NCBI GenBank assembly: GCA_021767745.1
Contig: JAASSS010000006.1
Span: 1-34,611 of the forward strand
Origin: Pseudomonadota bacterium
GTDB taxonomy: Bacteria; Pseudomonadota; Gammaproteobacteria; UBA5335
DNA length: 34,611 nucleotides
Direction: 5' to 3'
Shown here: positions 17,995-27,069 of the stretch, in pieces
Numbering within the stretch: position 1 is the stretch's first letter
Layout: every line of letters starts with the position of its first letter
Notes under the pieces: model-generated
Told to the model about the DNA's origin: nothing
The model's input: only the letters and a program-made list of their open reading frames with translations
The model's database searches: none
Translations under genes and position numbers: made by a program

Positions 17995-19975
<1,981 letters not shown>

Positions 19976-20117: not shown

Positions 20118-22448
20118 ATGCAGTCACGCCACGCTTCCGCTCTCGCCGGCCTTGTGCTGCTGACCGGCGTTCCCGTCGCCGGCGCCGTGATCATCAACGA
20201 GGCACTGGTCAGCATGACCGGGGTCGACGATGCCGAATACATCGAGCTGTTCGGCGCGCCCGACACCGCGCTCGCCGGGCTCTCGATCATCGGCGTGGAG
20301 GGCGATGCGGGCAGCGGGCCGGGCGGCATCGACTTCCGCTACGACTTTCCGGCCGGTGCCGTGCTGGGCCCAAACGGCTTCCTGCTGCTCGGCAACCCGA
20401 CGGGCCTGGCGCGCGCCTACGCGGTGACGCCGGATCTCGCGATCGGCGCCAACAGCCTGGAGAACAGCAGCGTGACGCTGGCGCTGGTGCAGACCGCGAG
20501 CCTGACCGGGGGCAGTGTGAGCGGCGGTGAGGTCGTGCTCGACGCCTTCGGCCTGACCGACGGTGATGCGGGTGACATCTTCTTCTTCGCCGCGCCGGTG
20601 ATCGGGCCGGACGGCAGCTTCTTTCCCGCCGGTGCGCGCCGCCTTGCCGACGGGCTCGATACCGACACACCAGCCGATTTCGTCTTCGCCGACTTCAACC
20701 TGGGCCCGGCCAATACGCCGGTATCCGGCGGCACCGGCGCGGGTGGCGAGTCCGTGCCCATCTACGAAATCCAGGGCGCCGGCGTGCGCGCCGCGCTTGC
20801 GGGCGAGACCATCACGACCACCGGCGTGGTCACCGCGCTGGCCGGGCGCGACTTCTGGCTGCAGGACCCGCAGGGCGATGCGGATCCCCAGACCTCCGAC
20901 GGTATCCTCGTCGATCTGCCCGGCAACTCGTCACTTCCGGCCGTCGCCGTCGGCGATGCCGTCGAGCTGACCGCGGTGGTCGACGAGCAGCAGTTCGGCG
21001 ACGCGCTGCCGCGCACGCGCCTGACCGGCGTATCGGCCCTGACCGTGGTGGCGACCGGCACTCCACTGCCGGCACCGGTAGTGCTGACCGACCTGCCGGA
21101 CGAAAGCCTCGTCGATGGCATCGACTTCTGGGAGCGGCTGGAGGGCATGCGCGTCTCGCTCACCAACGGCGTGGTGGTGGCACCGACCACGCGCTTCGGC
21201 GAATTCGCCGCCATCACACCGGCCGACGCGCGGGCGCTTTCCGGCTACCTGCCCACCCATCACGCGTTGCGGCTGCGCCCGCTGGGCGAGAACGTCGTCG
21301 ACTACAACCCCGAGCGAATCCTGATCGACGATGCCACCCTGCAGACGCCGCCGCAGGTGGTGCCGGGCGATCGGGTCCGTCAGCTGATCGGCGTGGTGGA
21401 CTACACCTTCGGCAACTACAAGCTGCAGCCGACGAGCCTCGAGCTCGACATCGCGCCGGTGCCTACGGCGCCGGTGAGCGAACGCGGCCCCGCCGGGCGC
21501 GACGCGACGCGCATCACCAGCTGGAACGTCGAGAACCTGTTCGACCTGCAGGATGCGCCGGGCAAGGACGATGGCTCCAGTACGCCCAGCGCTGCGGCGC
21601 TGGAGACTCAGCTCGCCAAGCTGGCACTCGCGCTGCGCATCGAGCTCGAACTGCCGGCCGTGCTCATCGTGCAGGAGGTGGAGAACACGGCCATCCTCCA
21701 GACGCTGGGTGATCGAGTGAACGCCGCCGCCGGCACCGCCTACACCGCCACCTCGTTCGAGACCAGCGATGGGCGCGGCATCGAGGTCGGCTTCCTGTGG
21801 GACGCCGATCGGATCGAGTTGCTGGAAGCGTTCCAGCTCGCCGGCCCGGCAGTGAGTGCCGCCTTCGGGCCGCAGAGCGCGAGCCCGGGCCGAGAGCCGC
21901 TGGTTGGCCGCTTCCGGATCGGCGGTGCCGAGGTGACGATCATCGGCAACCACTTCAAGAGCAAGGGCGGCGATGGGGCGCTGTTCGGCGCGACACAGCC
22001 GCCGGTCCGGGTGACCGAGGAGCAGCGCAAGGCGCAGGCACGGGCGGTGCGCGACTACGTCGACCAGCGGCTGGCCAGCGATCCGGCCGCGCTGCTGATG
22101 GTGGCGGGCGATCTGAACGATTTCCAGTTCGGCGAGCCGGGCGAGGGCGGGGATCATCCGGTAGCGATTCTGGAAGGCACCGGGCGGGCCGACATCCCCC
22201 TCTACAATCTCGTGCGGCTGGAGCGCCCTGACCAGCGCTACACCTTCGTCTTCGACGGCAACAGCCAGGTGCTCGATCACATGCTGGTCAGTCCGGCGCT
22301 GCTCAAGCGGTTGCGCGGGGTGGACATCCTGCATTTCAACGCCGGCTGGCCGGATGCGCTGGGTGATCTGGCCGACACTCCGCTGCGCGCCGCCGATCAC
22401 GATGCCGTCGAGGGCCGCTTTCACCTGGGTCCCTCGCACCGCCGCTAG
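20118..22448 (+). CDS. Secreted lamin-tail / endonuclease-exonuclease-phosphatase protein (ExeM/NucH-like)
   Basis: A 776-aa extracellular nuclease-like protein. A signal peptide (about 1-23, ending VAGA) is followed by a lamin-tail domain (about 24-170, AVIINEALVSMTG, DDAEYIELFG). An OB-fold-like region at about 215-330 has TTTGVVTALAGRDFWLQD, the form seen in ExeM-type nucleases. The C-terminal endonuclease/exonuclease/phosphatase domain starts near 465 (RITSWNVENLFDL), with QEVEN, NHFKSKGGD (about 610), the catalytic AGDLNDF (about 662) and the closing ADHDAVEGRF (about 760). The key metal-binding Glu, Asp-Asn and Asp-His residues appear intact, so an active enzyme is expected, probably degrading extracellular DNA. 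No PEP-CTERM or LPXTG-like tail is seen. It stands alone behind the groEL terminator; its promoter is not obvious. Confidence 0.88.
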   Translation: MQSRHASALAGLVLLTGVPVAGAVIINEALVSMTGVDDAEYIELFGAPDTALAGLSIIGVEGDAGSGPGGIDFRYDFPAGAVLGPNGFLLLGNPTGLARAYAVTPDLAIGANSLENSSVTLALVQTASLTGGSVSGGEVVLDAFGLTDGDAGDIFFFAAPVIGPDGSFFPAGARRLADGLDTDTPADFVFADFNLGPANTPVSGGTGAGGESVPIYEIQGAGVRAALAGETITTTGVVTALAGRDFWLQDPQGDADPQTSDGILVDLPGNSSLPAVAVGDAVELTAVVDEQQFGDALPRTRLTGVSALTVVATGTPLPAPVVLTDLPDESLVDGIDFWERLEGMRVSLTNGVVVAPTTRFGEFAAITPADARALSGYLPTHHALRLRPLGENVVDYNPERILIDDATLQTPPQVVPGDRVRQLIGVVDYTFGNYKLQPTSLELDIAPVPTAPVSERGPAGRDATRITSWNVENLFDLQDAPGKDDGSSTPSAAALETQLAKLALALRIELELPAVLIVQEVENTAILQTLGDRVNAAAGTAYTATSFETSDGRGIEVGFLWDADRIELLEAFQLAGPAVSAAFGPQSASPGREPLVGRFRIGGAEVTIIGNHFKSKGGDGALFGATQPPVRVTEEQRKAQARAVRDYVDQRLASDPAALLMVAGDLNDFQFGEPGEGGDHPVAILEGTGRADIPLYNLVRLERPDQRYTFVFDGNSQVLDHMLVSPALLKRLRGVDILHFNAGWPDALGDLADTPLRAADHDAVEGRFHLGPSHRR

Positions 22449-22493: not shown

Positions 22494-23366
22494 CTATGGA
22501 GCCGTCAGCGCCTCCGGACAGCCGGGCCAGTGGTGGGTGCGGCAGCTGGCGATCGCGTCCAGATGATTGAGCTGGCGGGTACGAATCACGCTTTCGATCT
22601 CCGCCGTCGGGTGTGGGTCGAAGGCGTGAGGCGGCAGCGCGGCAAGCAGCGCCAGCCCCGCAAGCGGCTGCCGTGCCCGCCGCCGTTCGGCACGCGCCTG
22701 CCGGAAGGCCAGATAGGCCGGGTGGGTGTTGTAGCGGTGCAGTTCGCCGGCCACCGCCTCCGCCGCACTGCCAAATCGCTGCCAGCGGTAGTGGCGCCCG
22801 GCCGGGCGGGTCGGCGGCAGGGCGCCGCAGTCCGGCGTGTGGCACAGCCGGCGGAACAGATTGTGCAGCGCCAGCATTTGCTCGTGATGGCCCCAGCGCG
22901 TTACCAGCGCCGCATGCGCGAGCGGCAGGGAAGGTGGCACCACGTCCACCCGTGCGGCGAGGCGCCGAAAGCTGCCCTGCGACTGCCAGTCCTGCGGTGG
23001 CAGCCGGTACCGGCTCGCCAGGCCCGCCAGCCAGTCGAGTTCGGCCGGCGTCAGCGGCTGGCGCGTGCGTAGGCGTTCGAGCCGGCGCCGATCGGCGAGG
23101 ATCGCGGCGTTGTGGTGCTCGAGCGGCGCGTGCACGAACTGCAGTAGCTGCTCGCGGCGGCGCCGTTCGGAGGTGAAGGCCGCCCAGTCGATCGAGTCAG
23201 GTGGCGGGGCCGCTGCGCGCAGTGCCGCCGGCATCACGGCCGGTGCCGGCAGTCGCGCCGATGCCGGCCGGTCCAGCACCTGCCAGACCAGCGCGACGAC
23301 GGGCAGGGCAAGCAGCAGCAGGCTGAGGCGCGCGAGCCAGACCGGCTCGGGGGCGCCAGTGCTCAT
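22494..23366 (-). CDS. Bax-like glucosaminidase-domain protein lacking the catalytic glutamate
   Basis: A 290-aa protein with an N-terminal membrane anchor (about 11-30) and an extracytoplasmic Bax/GH73-type domain (about 115-270). Recognisable parts are VVPPSLPLAHAALVTRWG, HNLFRRLCHTPDCGALP, the HRYNTHPAYLAFRQAR segment and LAGLALLAALPP. In active GH73 enzymes the first motif reads like AQAALESGWG with a catalytic Glu; here that position is Val155 and the neighbours are also changed. The fold is therefore conserved but hydrolysis is doubtful. The ATG at 23366 overlaps the hydrolase stop (ATGA); the longer open frame to 23483 lies inside that gene. It is the last gene of the exporter operon. 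It may bind peptidoglycan without cutting it. Confidence 0.75.
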   Translation of the reverse strand: MSTGAPEPVWLARLSLLLLALPVVALVWQVLDRPASARLPAPAVMPAALRAAAPPPDSIDWAAFTSERRRREQLLQFVHAPLEHHNAAILADRRRLERLRTRQPLTPAELDWLAGLASRYRLPPQDWQSQGSFRRLAARVDVVPPSLPLAHAALVTRWGHHEQMLALHNLFRRLCHTPDCGALPPTRPAGRHYRWQRFGSAAEAVAGELHRYNTHPAYLAFRQARAERRRARQPLAGLALLAALPPHAFDPHPTAEIESVIRTRQLNHLDAIASCRTHHWPGCPEALTAP

Positions 23367-24331
23367 TGCCCGGGGGCCGTGACGATCTGCCGGGGCAGGG
23401 CTGTGTCCAGGAAGGCGGTGATGCTGTCGGCCACCAGCGCCGGCCGCTCCAGTTGCATGAAATGCCCGCACGGGCCGAACCACTGCTGGCGGCTGGCCGG
23501 ATGTGGGCAGTCGCGGCGGGCGCCGACGAACATGCCGGGACCGATGCAGCCGTCCCCGCTGCCGGCGAGCACCAACACCGGCTGCTCGATCCGGCCGAGC
23601 AGCAGGCGCAGGGTACGGGCCCAGCGGCGCGGGCCGCTATGGGCGGGATTGAGCAGGCTGCGGTAGTAGCCGATCGCCTGCTCGAGGGTCGGCGCCGGCG
23701 ACAGCAGCCGTTGCGCCGCCACCCGGGCGGGCTCCTCGCGCGGCAGCATCGGCGACCAGCGCCGCCAGAGGCGGGCGAGGTAGCGCAGACGGCGGCGCTG
23801 CAGCCAGCCGACGATGCCGGGCAGCTGCAGATAGAGCATGTAGCGCGAGCGCCAGAGCTGGGCGGGCGTCAGATGCCGCAGGAAGGTGCGGATCGGCGGT
23901 ACTGCCGCCAGCACTGCCGCCTCGATGCGGCATGCCGGCCGCGGTGTGTGGCGCTGGCGAGCCAGCAGCAGCTGGGCGAGGATCGACCCCCAGTCGTGGC
24001 CGACCAGCACCACCGGCTCCGGCGCTGCCACGGCTGCCAGCCACTGCTCCAGCTGCCCGGCGGCGGCCAGCAAGTCGCTCGGCGGCGGTAGCGTCGATTC
24101 GCCGTAGCCGGGCAGGTACGGCGCCAGGACCCGATAGCCGGCGGCTGCCAGGCGCGGCGCCAGAGCGGCGAAGCTGGCTGGGGAGTCGGGGAAGCCATGG
24201 AGCAGGACCAGCGTCGGCCCCTCGCCCCAGGCGTGATGGGCCATGCTGCCCTCGGGCAGGGCGGTCCGCTGGATCGGCGGTAGCGAGGATGGCACGAGGC
24301 CGGGCGCCTGGCCCTCGGCCTCAGCAGTCAC
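23363..24331 (-). CDS. Alpha/beta-hydrolase, epoxide hydrolase / haloalkane dehalogenase type
   Basis: A 322-aa alpha/beta-hydrolase. The oxyanion-hole motif HGFP is at 45-48, the nucleophile elbow GHDWGS has Asp113, the acid is probably Asp260 (SGDGCIGP) and the base His290 (CGHFM). An aspartate nucleophile with HGFP marks the epoxide hydrolase/dehalogenase branch rather than serine esterases. The cap domain (about 150-230) carries several tyrosines (SRYMLYLQLPG) that could activate an epoxide. No signal peptide is seen. The start at 24331 overlaps DUF3617 by 11 nt; Met30 is an alternative. Its substrate is unknown. It lies between the DUF3617 and Bax-like genes in a coupled operon. Confidence 0.85.
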   Translation of the reverse strand: MTAEAEGQAPGLVPSSLPPIQRTALPEGSMAHHAWGEGPTLVLLHGFPDSPASFAALAPRLAAAGYRVLAPYLPGYGESTLPPPSDLLAAAGQLEQWLAAVAAPEPVVLVGHDWGSILAQLLLARQRHTPRPACRIEAAVLAAVPPIRTFLRHLTPAQLWRSRYMLYLQLPGIVGWLQRRRLRYLARLWRRWSPMLPREEPARVAAQRLLSPAPTLEQAIGYYRSLLNPAHSGPRRWARTLRLLLGRIEQPVLVLAGSGDGCIGPGMFVGARRDCPHPASRQQWFGPCGHFMQLERPALVADSITAFLDTALPRQIVTAPGQ

Positions 24332-24769: not shown

Positions 24770-25906
24770 TCAGCCGGCTGCGGCAACCGCTCGAGCAGGT
24801 GCCTCGCCTCGGCGCTCGTAACCGAAGGCGTCGAACACCGGTCCGGCGACCTCGTTGACCATCCGGTAGACCTCGGGGTCATCCCGGTGTTTGTTCTTCT
24901 GGTAGTCCTGCTGGGAGGCCAGGTAGCTCTTGAAGTGAGGTTCGGCCTGCGCCCAGCCGGGCAGGCCCAGCGTTTCGTAGATGCGTCGCAGGGTGCCGAG
25001 GCCATCGCGATCCAGCTCATCGTAGCTGACTTCCACCAGTTGGCCGGCCGGGATCTGCGAACGCTCGTCCAGATAGCGCTGCATGATGCGGCCGTAGACG
25101 TAGAGCACGGTGTCGTCGCGCTCGCGCGGCGACAGACGCTGGACGGCGTAGGTGTTCTCCATCTTTTCATACAGATGGCGGGTCGAGCGGAACACCTGGT
25201 AGGGGTCGCGGTGCAGGAAGATGAACTTCGCGCCCGGGTAGAGCCGGGTCAGCAGTGCCACCCGGCCGGTGCTCGGCGGATTCTTCAGCAGGATGGGCTT
25301 GTCGTGCAGCATCGTCGCCTGCTGCAGGATGAACTTGTGCAGCGCCGCATATTCCTCGGCCGCCGCCGGGGCGTTCTCGAACAGCACGGTGCGCTCGAAG
25401 ATCTCGCGGGTGTGGCGCAGGTACATCCAGTGGAAGTACATCGCGGTGTCACTGCGGGAGGCGACCGCGAACTCCTCTTCCTGCGCCATGTCCACGCCCA
25501 CCGGCAGATTGTCCATCGGCCGGCGCATCGTCGGCAGGATGCCGCCCAGCTTCTCCAGCCATCGGGCCAGCACGAACAGGGCACTGCTGCCGGCGGCCTC
25601 GACGTTCGTGATGGAGGCGAAGCGCGGATCCTGATCCATCAGGTAGTGCAGGTGCGTCGTACCGCTGCGCCAGTGGCCGATGATCATCACCGGTGGTTCG
25701 GCGATCTCCACCTGCCGGACCTTGTCGTCGTAGTAGCGTTCTTCCAGATACCGGAGCGGGCCGAGCAGGCGATTCATCACACGTGTGTAGCGCAGGCGCC
25801 AGCGAAGGTCGGGGTCGACCTCGCGGCCGGCGATGACGCCATTGAGCACATCGCGCTTGGCCGAAATGAACGGCGAGGCGATTGGCGGGATTTCCATATC
25901 CAGCAT
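24770..25906 (-). CDS. PAPS-dependent sulfotransferase family protein
   Basis: A 378-aa cytoplasmic sulfotransferase of the Sulfotransfer_3 type. The 5'-phosphosulfate loop MIIGHWRSGTTHLHYLMD is at 74-91, and the 3'-phosphate-binding segment FIFLHRDPYQVFRSTRHLY is at about 228-246. A conserved-looking ILLKNPPS lies between. Such enzymes move sulfate from PAPS to a hydroxyl of a sugar, lipid or small molecule; the acceptor here is unknown. The frame is open to 26125, inside the upstream permease gene. I chose the ATG at 25906 because it clears that gene by 41 nt and leaves the family's N-terminus; Met4 (25897) is also possible. Its by-product PAP is the substrate of CysQ (1-662). Confidence 0.86.
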   Translation of the reverse strand: MLDMEIPPIASPFISAKRDVLNGVIAGREVDPDLRWRLRYTRVMNRLLGPLRYLEERYYDDKVRQVEIAEPPVMIIGHWRSGTTHLHYLMDQDPRFASITNVEAAGSSALFVLARWLEKLGGILPTMRRPMDNLPVGVDMAQEEEFAVASRSDTAMYFHWMYLRHTREIFERTVLFENAPAAAEEYAALHKFILQQATMLHDKPILLKNPPSTGRVALLTRLYPGAKFIFLHRDPYQVFRSTRHLYEKMENTYAVQRLSPRERDDTVLYVYGRIMQRYLDERSQIPAGQLVEVSYDELDRDGLGTLRRIYETLGLPGWAQAEPHFKSYLASQQDYQKNKHRDDPEVYRMVNEVAGPVFDAFGYERRGEAPARAVAAAG

Positions 25907-25947
25907 GATGTTTTCCGCAGGCAGGGTGGGGGGATCAGGGCATCGTT

Positions 25948-27069
25948 CTAGCCAGTCACCGCCAGCGCCCGGCGGAAGCGATACAGGCTGACCGCAAAAA
26001 ATAGCATACCGATGCCGAAGGTCGCGGCGAAGCGCGGCCAGAGCACGTCGATGCCGGCGCCACGGAACAGGATAGCCTGCGCAAAGTGAACGAAGTGTGT
26101 CGAGGGCACGGCCTGCATCACCCACTGCAGCAGCCTCGGCATGCTTTCCAGCGGTGTATTGCCACCGGACAGCAGATTCATCGGCAACACGATGAGGATG
26201 AACAGCAGGCCGAGCTGCGGCATGGAGCGGGCGAGCGTGCCGAGGAAGATGCCGAGCGCGGTGGCGAAGAACAGATACAGCACGACGCCGCCGACGAACA
26301 GTGCCGGCGAGCCGACCAGCGGGACGCCGACCAGCCCTCGGATGACGACTAGCAGCGAGACGATCACGGCCAGCACGATCACCAGTCCGTTGGCCCAGAC
26401 CTTGGCGATCATGATCTCCGCCGGCCGCAGCGGCATCACCAGCAGGTGTTCGATCGTGCCGTGCTCGCGCTCGCGGATCAACGCCGCGCCGCTCAGCAGC
26501 ACCGCCAGCATCGTCACGTTATTGATCAGCGCCATCACCCCGGTGAACCAGCCGCTTTCCAGGGCCGGATTGAAGGCGAAGCGCGTCTCCAGCGCGATCG
26601 GCAGGGGCTGGCGGGGCACCTGCAGGTAGTCGGCCACCTCTGCCGCGATGATGTTCTGGATGTAGTTGGCGCCAAGGCCCGCCTGCATCATCGCCGTGGC
26701 ATCGATGACGATCTGGATCTGCGGCTGGCGGTTCGCGCGCAGGTCCGCCGCCAGTCCCGCCGGCAGCACCACCACGAAGGTGACGCGGGCATGCTCCAGC
26801 GCGTCGTCCAGCTCGGCGAACTCGAGGTAGCGCGCCGGCTTGAACTCCGGTGGCAGAAAGGCCGCCGCGATGCGCCGGCTCAGCACGGAATGATCCTCGT
26901 CCACCACGCCGACCGCGGCATTGTGCAGATCGTGCTGCAGTCCGGTGGCCTGGCTGTACACCGAGAAGGTGAACGAATAGATCACGAACAGCAGCATGAA
27001 GCGGTCGTAGCGGATGCTGCGCAGTTCCTTGAGCCCCAGCCAGAGCACGTTGCGCAGATCCAGCATCAT
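25948..27069 (-). CDS. yhhJ: ABC-2 type transporter permease (YhhJ-like)
   Basis: A 373-aa inner-membrane permease. The N-terminal helix is about 25-42, followed by a large external loop to about 175 (YIQNIIAAEVADYL), then five helices. The conserved region INNVTMLAVLLSGAALIRER, then HGTIEHLLVMPLRPAEI, matches E. coli YhhJ closely, as does RSMPQLGLLFILIVLPMNLL. It overlaps the rbbA-like stop by 1 nt (TGATG). With the preceding HlyD and RbbA-like genes it makes a complete YhiI-RbbA-YhhJ exporter. The substrate is unknown. Confidence 0.92.
   Translation of the reverse strand: MMLDLRNVLWLGLKELRSIRYDRFMLLFVIYSFTFSVYSQATGLQHDLHNAAVGVVDEDHSVLSRRIAAAFLPPEFKPARYLEFAELDDALEHARVTFVVVLPAGLAADLRANRQPQIQIVIDATAMMQAGLGANYIQNIIAAEVADYLQVPRQPLPIALETRFAFNPALESGWFTGVMALINNVTMLAVLLSGAALIREREHGTIEHLLVMPLRPAEIMIAKVWANGLVIVLAVIVSLLVVIRGLVGVPLVGSPALFVGGVVLYLFFATALGIFLGTLARSMPQLGLLFILIVLPMNLLSGGNTPLESMPRLLQWVMQAVPSTHFVHFAQAILFRGAGIDVLWPRFAATFGIGMLFFAVSLYRFRRALAVTG

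Follow-up and report, generated by a model that had tools for sequence, protein, structure and literature searches.

A Bax-like protein that has lost the GH73 catalytic glutamate within an intact reading frame

The window, i.e. the whole 34,611-nucleotide stretch of gammaproteobacterial DNA that was analysed, contains a Bax-like gene whose product has valine in place of the glutamate that acts as general acid in GH73 peptidoglycan hydrolases. Judged from the residues it has lost, the protein is very probably non-catalytic. The pattern of what has been kept makes it reasonably likely that the gene is still selected, and a role as the partner of another protein, suggested by analogy, is put forward tentatively. 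The interpretation as a whole, that this is a non-hydrolytic, membrane-anchored derivative of Bax with a fold that is still selected and that perhaps, as a guess, serves a protein partner, seems to us evenly poised. The evidence comes from a single draft assembly, the one genome of this genus.

The gene and its product

The features of the gene and protein are as follows.

22494..23366, minus strand: Bax-like open reading frame without the catalytic glutamate, 290 amino acids, assigned by homology, predicted model and matches to GH73 structures
22902..22904, minus strand: codon 155, GTA (Val), replacing the family Glu
22851..22916, minus strand: cleft motif block, residues 151-172 (family QAA-ES-WG-SRFA-...-FG), from the Bax family alignment
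22605..22631, minus strand: C-terminal cleft motif, residues 246-254 (family YS...Y), from the Bax family alignment
22827..22844, minus strand: hairpin cysteine pair C175/C180 (CxxxxCG), kept; putative disulfide
22518..22544, minus strand: C-terminal cysteine pair C275/C283, present also in the orthologue of genome G001; putative disulfide
23274..23345, minus strand: N-terminal hydrophobic helix, residues 8-31, from the sequence and from helix H8-31 of the model

The sequence-only reading had described an intact frame coupled to its neighbour, and this is confirmed: the 290-residue frame is unbroken, and its ATG start overlaps the stop codon of the upstream hydrolase gene (ATGA). Residues 150-159 read AHAALVTRWG, such that the motif glutamate is indeed Val155, encoded by GTA, and the following Ser-Gly is Thr-Arg. 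The form AQAALESGWG, which had been taken as the normal motif, does occur in the family, but as one of several variants. The downstream segments reported as kept are all present (N169-L170-F171, C180-G181 and N213-R222). The loss of the glutamate was thus described correctly but understated, since E155V is accompanied by Q151H, S156T, S161H, R162E, F163Q, A164M and G172R in the same block, by Y247H, S248A and Y253P in the C-terminal motif, and by Glu in place of the Tyr208 of the Bax family consensus.

Helix 8-31 is probably a membrane anchor or signal. All four cysteines are common to the protein and its orthologue in G001, a genome of another genus in the same family. The hairpin pattern CxxxxCG is found in 124 of 176 sequences, while a simple tail pattern detects the C-terminal pair in only three of the 176 (the window, G001 and L022).

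Family membership and predicted fold

Residues 63-244 match the NCBIfam model PRK10356 'protein bax' (NF007681) with an E value of 6.7e-19, and the score of 68 bits lies below the cut-off of 193, which is passed by none of the five proteins found in the window's order (those of G001, G006, G007 and G008 also fall below it). The Pfam Glucosaminidase model (PF01832) gives 17.9 bits against a cut-off of 30.2; the proteins of G001, G006 and G007 pass (44-64 bits), and that of G008 falls short at 26.6. The match to the Bax of G001 spans residues 6-286 at about one-third identity. The protein resembles Bax in the homology of residues 63-244, the CxxxxCG hairpin, the NTHxAY segment and most scaffold columns, but differs from it in the replacement of the catalytic glutamate and of most cleft columns.

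A comparison of the sequence with those of solved structures returned a single, unrelated match (E 1.6). An AlphaFold2 model (m8dd71f12b9d7; pLDDT 88.4, pTM 0.79) was built from an alignment of the window protein with 59 of the 80 named loci listed in the searches below, and because this family alignment was supplied, the model indicates compatibility with the fold and not its stability. The best structural alignment is to Auto (3fi7; Z 12.6, rmsd 3.1 over 142 residues), with AtlA (Z 11.8) and FlgJ (Z 10.2) also matched; the top 17 rows have Z scores of at least 5.0 and are nearly all wall-lytic by title, while the next, unrelated, reach 3.3 or less. Foldseek placed the same families on top, although none with E below 0.001 (best 0.041). 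The protein is hence predicted to have the lysozyme-like GH73 fold.

In sequence alignments, the Bax family motif falls on the catalytic helix in FlgJ, Auto and LytB. Relative to these enzymes and AtlE, with which it would share its fold, the window protein lacks the general-acid glutamate of that helix (Val155), has arginine for the glycine after NLF, and has lost the YS/YASD (or YATD) cleft motif, which is His247-Ala248. As for the second carboxylate carried on the beta-hairpin in the FlgJ/Auto subgroup, the window protein has no glutamate in residues 182-198, but the same stretch of the glutamate-bearing rows L004 and L008 lacks one too.

Rarity of the glutamate loss

Bax-like proteins were sought in the order (nine genomes, five with a match) and in the class (matches in 61 of 274 genomes, and in 86 of 369 in a larger draw that overlapped the first), and a separate search for relatives gave a match in nine of 56 genomes. 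Nine open reading frames identical to existing rows were merged, and two sequences (L077 and L215) stop short of the catalytic position. Some of the 94 readable rows are fragments, and a few are weak matches that may represent other GH73 proteins (e.g. L078 and L079, with survey E values of 1.1e-7 and 8.8e-5), and the survey model could miss proteins still more degenerate. Glutamate occupies the catalytic position in 92 of these 94 survey sequences from the window's order and class, which implies that Val155 is not ordinary variation at this site. The two exceptions are the window protein and the protein of G008, a genome of the same order, which has glutamine. Outside the order the residue is glutamate in 89 of 89 cases, and inside it in three of five. 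A Fisher test of the order against the rest (2/5 glutamate-less versus 0/62, p = 0.0045) preceded the addition of 27 further glutamate-bearing rows, ignores kinship and is descriptive only.

Among the matches listed, glutamate was also present in all 80 named loci, a biased count in that one of the two scan patterns used there required it; the named relatives are, by title, mostly Gammaproteobacteria. A named genome collection searched with the window/G001 alignment yielded no relative, and a plasmid search gave eight records, all below 60% identity and none covering 80% of the query. A narrow search of the open-access literature turned up no description of a naturally occurring GH73 protein that lacks the general-acid glutamate. 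Loss of the residue throughout the genome was considered and rejected, as the other GH73-type protein of the window's genome (L181, G000:C76:20009-20413) keeps it in the motif LETGWG; from this motif the protein is presumably FlgJ-like.

Distribution of the changes between cleft and scaffold

Conserved columns were defined as those at least 85% identical in 82 full-length proteins outside the order (n = 34), a count that left out nine fragmentary or weak rows and the five order members; an earlier count had left out six such rows, the window and G008. The window protein keeps 20 of the 34 columns and differs at 14, the lowest value among the compared rows, for which the median is 33. G006, G007 and G008, which belong to the other family of the order, come next, their proteins keeping 25-26 columns. 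The columns kept in the window protein include N86, R93, Y120, L136, R139, D141, P144, W158-G159, F171, G181, P184, N213, R222, R225, L240 and L244.

The losses are concentrated in the two cleft motif blocks, where 11 of 15 columns have changed, compared with 3 of the 19 others (Fisher p = 0.0013). The blocks (151-172 and 246-254) were drawn with the alignment already in view; under groupings tried earlier, p was 8e-5 when Y208 was included and 5e-4 when it was not. The same comparison is not significant in G008 (6/15 versus 3/19, p = 0.14), nor in the glutamate-bearing proteins of G006 and G007.

Genomic context

The neighbouring genes of interest are as follows.

23363..24331, minus strand: alpha/beta hydrolase, directly upstream of bax with the ATGA overlap; the same neighbour is found in G001
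18329..19975, plus strand: gene that we take from its sequence to be groEL, near bax in G001 too
24770..26125, minus strand: gene of the sulfotransferase family, farther upstream, same strand as bax

A 776-residue protein with an endonuclease/exonuclease/phosphatase domain is encoded between groEL and bax (20118-22448, plus strand), which is not so in G001. By eye, the hydrolase retains the motif GHDWGS, presumably the nucleophile motif of the haloalkane dehalogenase and epoxide hydrolase types; hence the bax-hydrolase pair, taken together, gives no impression of decay.

G001 has the same gene order, groEL(+), bax(-), hydrolase(-), and its Bax motif reads AANESAWG, with the glutamate kept. Such an orthologue had been named in the sequence-only reading as the mark of a strain-specific mutation in the window. 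The orthologue exists, but a single mutation of that kind does not describe the difference, since the two proteins are only about one-third identical and most of a motif has changed. The sequence-only reading also asked whether orthologues beside the same hydrolase and sulfotransferase lack the residue: the one beside the hydrolase has it, and no sulfotransferase match (at E 1e-8) lies beside bax in the available flanks of the compared loci, such that the sulfotransferase does not appear to belong to the shared pair. A hydrolase match at the same threshold was likewise absent from beside bax in the available flanks of the 80 named loci among the matches listed. In a third genus of the family, no bax was found in four genomes, two of them at least 95% complete, while two of the four have the hydrolase, with no bax among the open reading frames beside it. 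Its apparent absence from a sister genus makes bax seem dispensable in the window's family.

Phylogeny and the number of losses

In a quick tree of 71 rows, the window protein lies in an open fork, and its end branch, at 3.01, is much the longest (median 0.69). Constraining it to group with G001 gave a tree that scored 12.7 log units above the one from the unconstrained search (p-AU = 0.75), which is consistent with orthology and stops short of proving a clade. A clade uniting the window protein with those of the other family (G006, G007 and G008) was not rejected either (p = 0.394).

The second glutamate-less protein, that of G008 (L017, G008:C25, 1721-2626, minus strand), comes from this other family and has Gln188, encoded by CAA; the genome is a draft with 6% contamination and the contig is 4.2 kb long. 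Both proteins lack the catalytic glutamate, but unlike the window protein, that of G008 keeps Ser161, Ala164 and Gly172 and has other gene neighbours. It falls in a clade with G006 and G007, both of which bear glutamate. Joining it to the window protein made the tree 17.4 log units worse without being rejected (p-AU = 0.189). As the glutamate is kept in the nearest relatives (G001, G006 and G007), and given the kinship of the genomes, the simplest account is of two separate losses, one in the window's genus and one in G008.

Some further peculiarities of this family were observed. The Bax of G007 (L018, 300-1172, minus strand) and that of G006 (L016, 9976-10848, plus strand), which keep the glutamate, have valine for the conserved glutamine preceding it and tryptophan for the conserved Tyr247 in YS; their hairpin is also shortened. 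By eye, the G008 gene adjoins one whose product resembles the neighbour of the G006 gene.

Selection or decay

The ancestor was probably a normal Bax, which the gene at the same place in G001 still seems to encode. Once catalysis had been given up, selection would have been lifted from the substrate cleft but would have persisted on the cysteine pairs and the helical scaffold. The result would be a membrane-anchored, presumably periplasmic protein that has the GH73/Bax fold but has ceased to cleave peptidoglycan. The kept fold might then most plausibly let it regulate another protein of the envelope, or act as its partner, as DipM docks on autolysins.

The main rival is relaxed selection on the way to gene loss, whereby bax is dispensable, catalysis has gone, and the intact frame merely reflects too little time; this is a real possibility, if one held at less than even strength. 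The longest end branch of the tree is expected under relaxed selection as well and so counts against the preferred interpretation, as does the lack of a significant cleft-versus-rest contrast in G008. The sister genus in which no bax was found, yet in which two of the four genomes have the hydrolase, also fits with a gene being lost, and the high G+C content (0.70) makes chance stop codons rarer. Against decay stand the concentration of losses in the cleft motifs, the retained start overlap, length and four cysteines, and a G+C content by codon position (0.79/0.56/0.85) like that of the hydrolase gene (0.77/0.56/0.89). Furthermore, neutral substitution of this gene was simulated without indels, 400 times per setting, and 2-8% of runs were free of stop codons at the setting that altered one third of the residues, a result that is suggestive rather than decisive. 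Together with the better preservation of scaffold than of cleft and with the retained overlap at the start codon, the simulation argues for selection on the fold after the loss of catalysis. Hence the proposal of the sequence-only reading that this is a pseudo-enzyme and not a decayed gene is, with the glutamate absent, the frame intact and coupled, and the scaffold columns kept better than the cleft, the better reading, albeit short of proof.

Expected consequences for catalysis and glycan binding

The roles of the altered positions can be gauged from characterised GH73 enzymes. The motif glutamate of StFlgJ, Glu184, is the general acid/base (PMC4752226). In LytB, Glu585 was the sole acid found essential in an alanine scan, with the D657A mutant slowed and none of the other acids in or near the groove essential (PMC4633669). 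Glu138 of AtlE is described as the only residue common to the compared GH73 and lysozyme structures, and its alanine mutant is inactive (PMC5330529). In docked models of LytB, Phe601 contacts and helps to hold GlcNAc, Gly602 contacts MurNAc, and Ser656 of the YASD tetrad is a glycan contact (PMC4633669). Phe171 and Gly172 of the Bax family match LytB Phe601 and Gly602 by their ungapped offsets from the glutamate (+16 and +17), and the YS motif marks the site of Ser656; these equivalences rest on offset or motif rather than on superposed coordinates. On this basis cutting and sugar holding should both be affected, given the loss of the glutamate, the arginine at position 172 and the His247-Ala248 that replaces YS.

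This bears on the idea, advanced in the sequence-only reading, that the protein binds the wall, its old cleft holding glycan without cutting it. The retention of Phe171, the equivalent of the GlcNAc-holding Phe601, together with Asn169, Trp158-Gly159 and Asn213, would suit such a function. However, the likely binding residues have been lost along with the acid: the equivalents of Gly602 and Ser656 are Arg172 and Ala248, SRFA has become HEQM, and Tyr208 is glutamate. The wall-contact positions having gone together with the catalytic one, the term 'wall-binding' is unsupported, and we regard this function as improbable.

Still less likely is that the protein remains a hydrolase with Glu162 or Glu208, which replace the conserved Arg162 and Tyr208, standing in for residue 155. 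By its offset (+7), Glu162 corresponds to AtlE Glu145, which is reported to lie 14 Å from Glu138 and was not found to assist catalysis (PMC5330529), and the LytB results above offer no precedent for another essential acid in the groove. An assembly or sequencing artefact is equally implausible: the assembly is a single draft in 184 contigs and 82% complete, but the changes extend over 14 columns in distant motifs with the frame unbroken. A frameshift was examined by eye and rejected, as neither of the remaining minus-strand frames recovers the motif, save for a short string, GPSRAN, in one of them, whose resemblance to SRFA was taken as chance.

Comparison with other inactive wall enzymes and significance

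Catalytically dead relatives of wall hydrolases are represented by EnvC, NlpD and ActS. These proteins are described as activating amidases, and DipM, a catalytically dead LytM protein, is reported to dock on autolysins (PMC10336132). The window protein may work like them, in that a wall-hydrolase fold would be reused as a docking or regulatory domain, but their LytM fold is unrelated to its own. A bolder proposal is that Bax has become non-catalytic at least twice in one order and that the emptied cleft is now a protein-docking groove controlling another wall enzyme, the GH73 counterpart of the dead LytM regulators; this is speculative, and we consider it unlikely.

The chief interest to specialists is the apparently repeated loss of a near-fixed residue within one small order. 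With bax kept in some members and, it would seem, missing from others and twice inactivated, this order would offer a natural series for studying roles of Bax besides cutting. If the protein is indeed made and folded, GH73 would join the wall-hydrolase folds that have been reused without catalysis.
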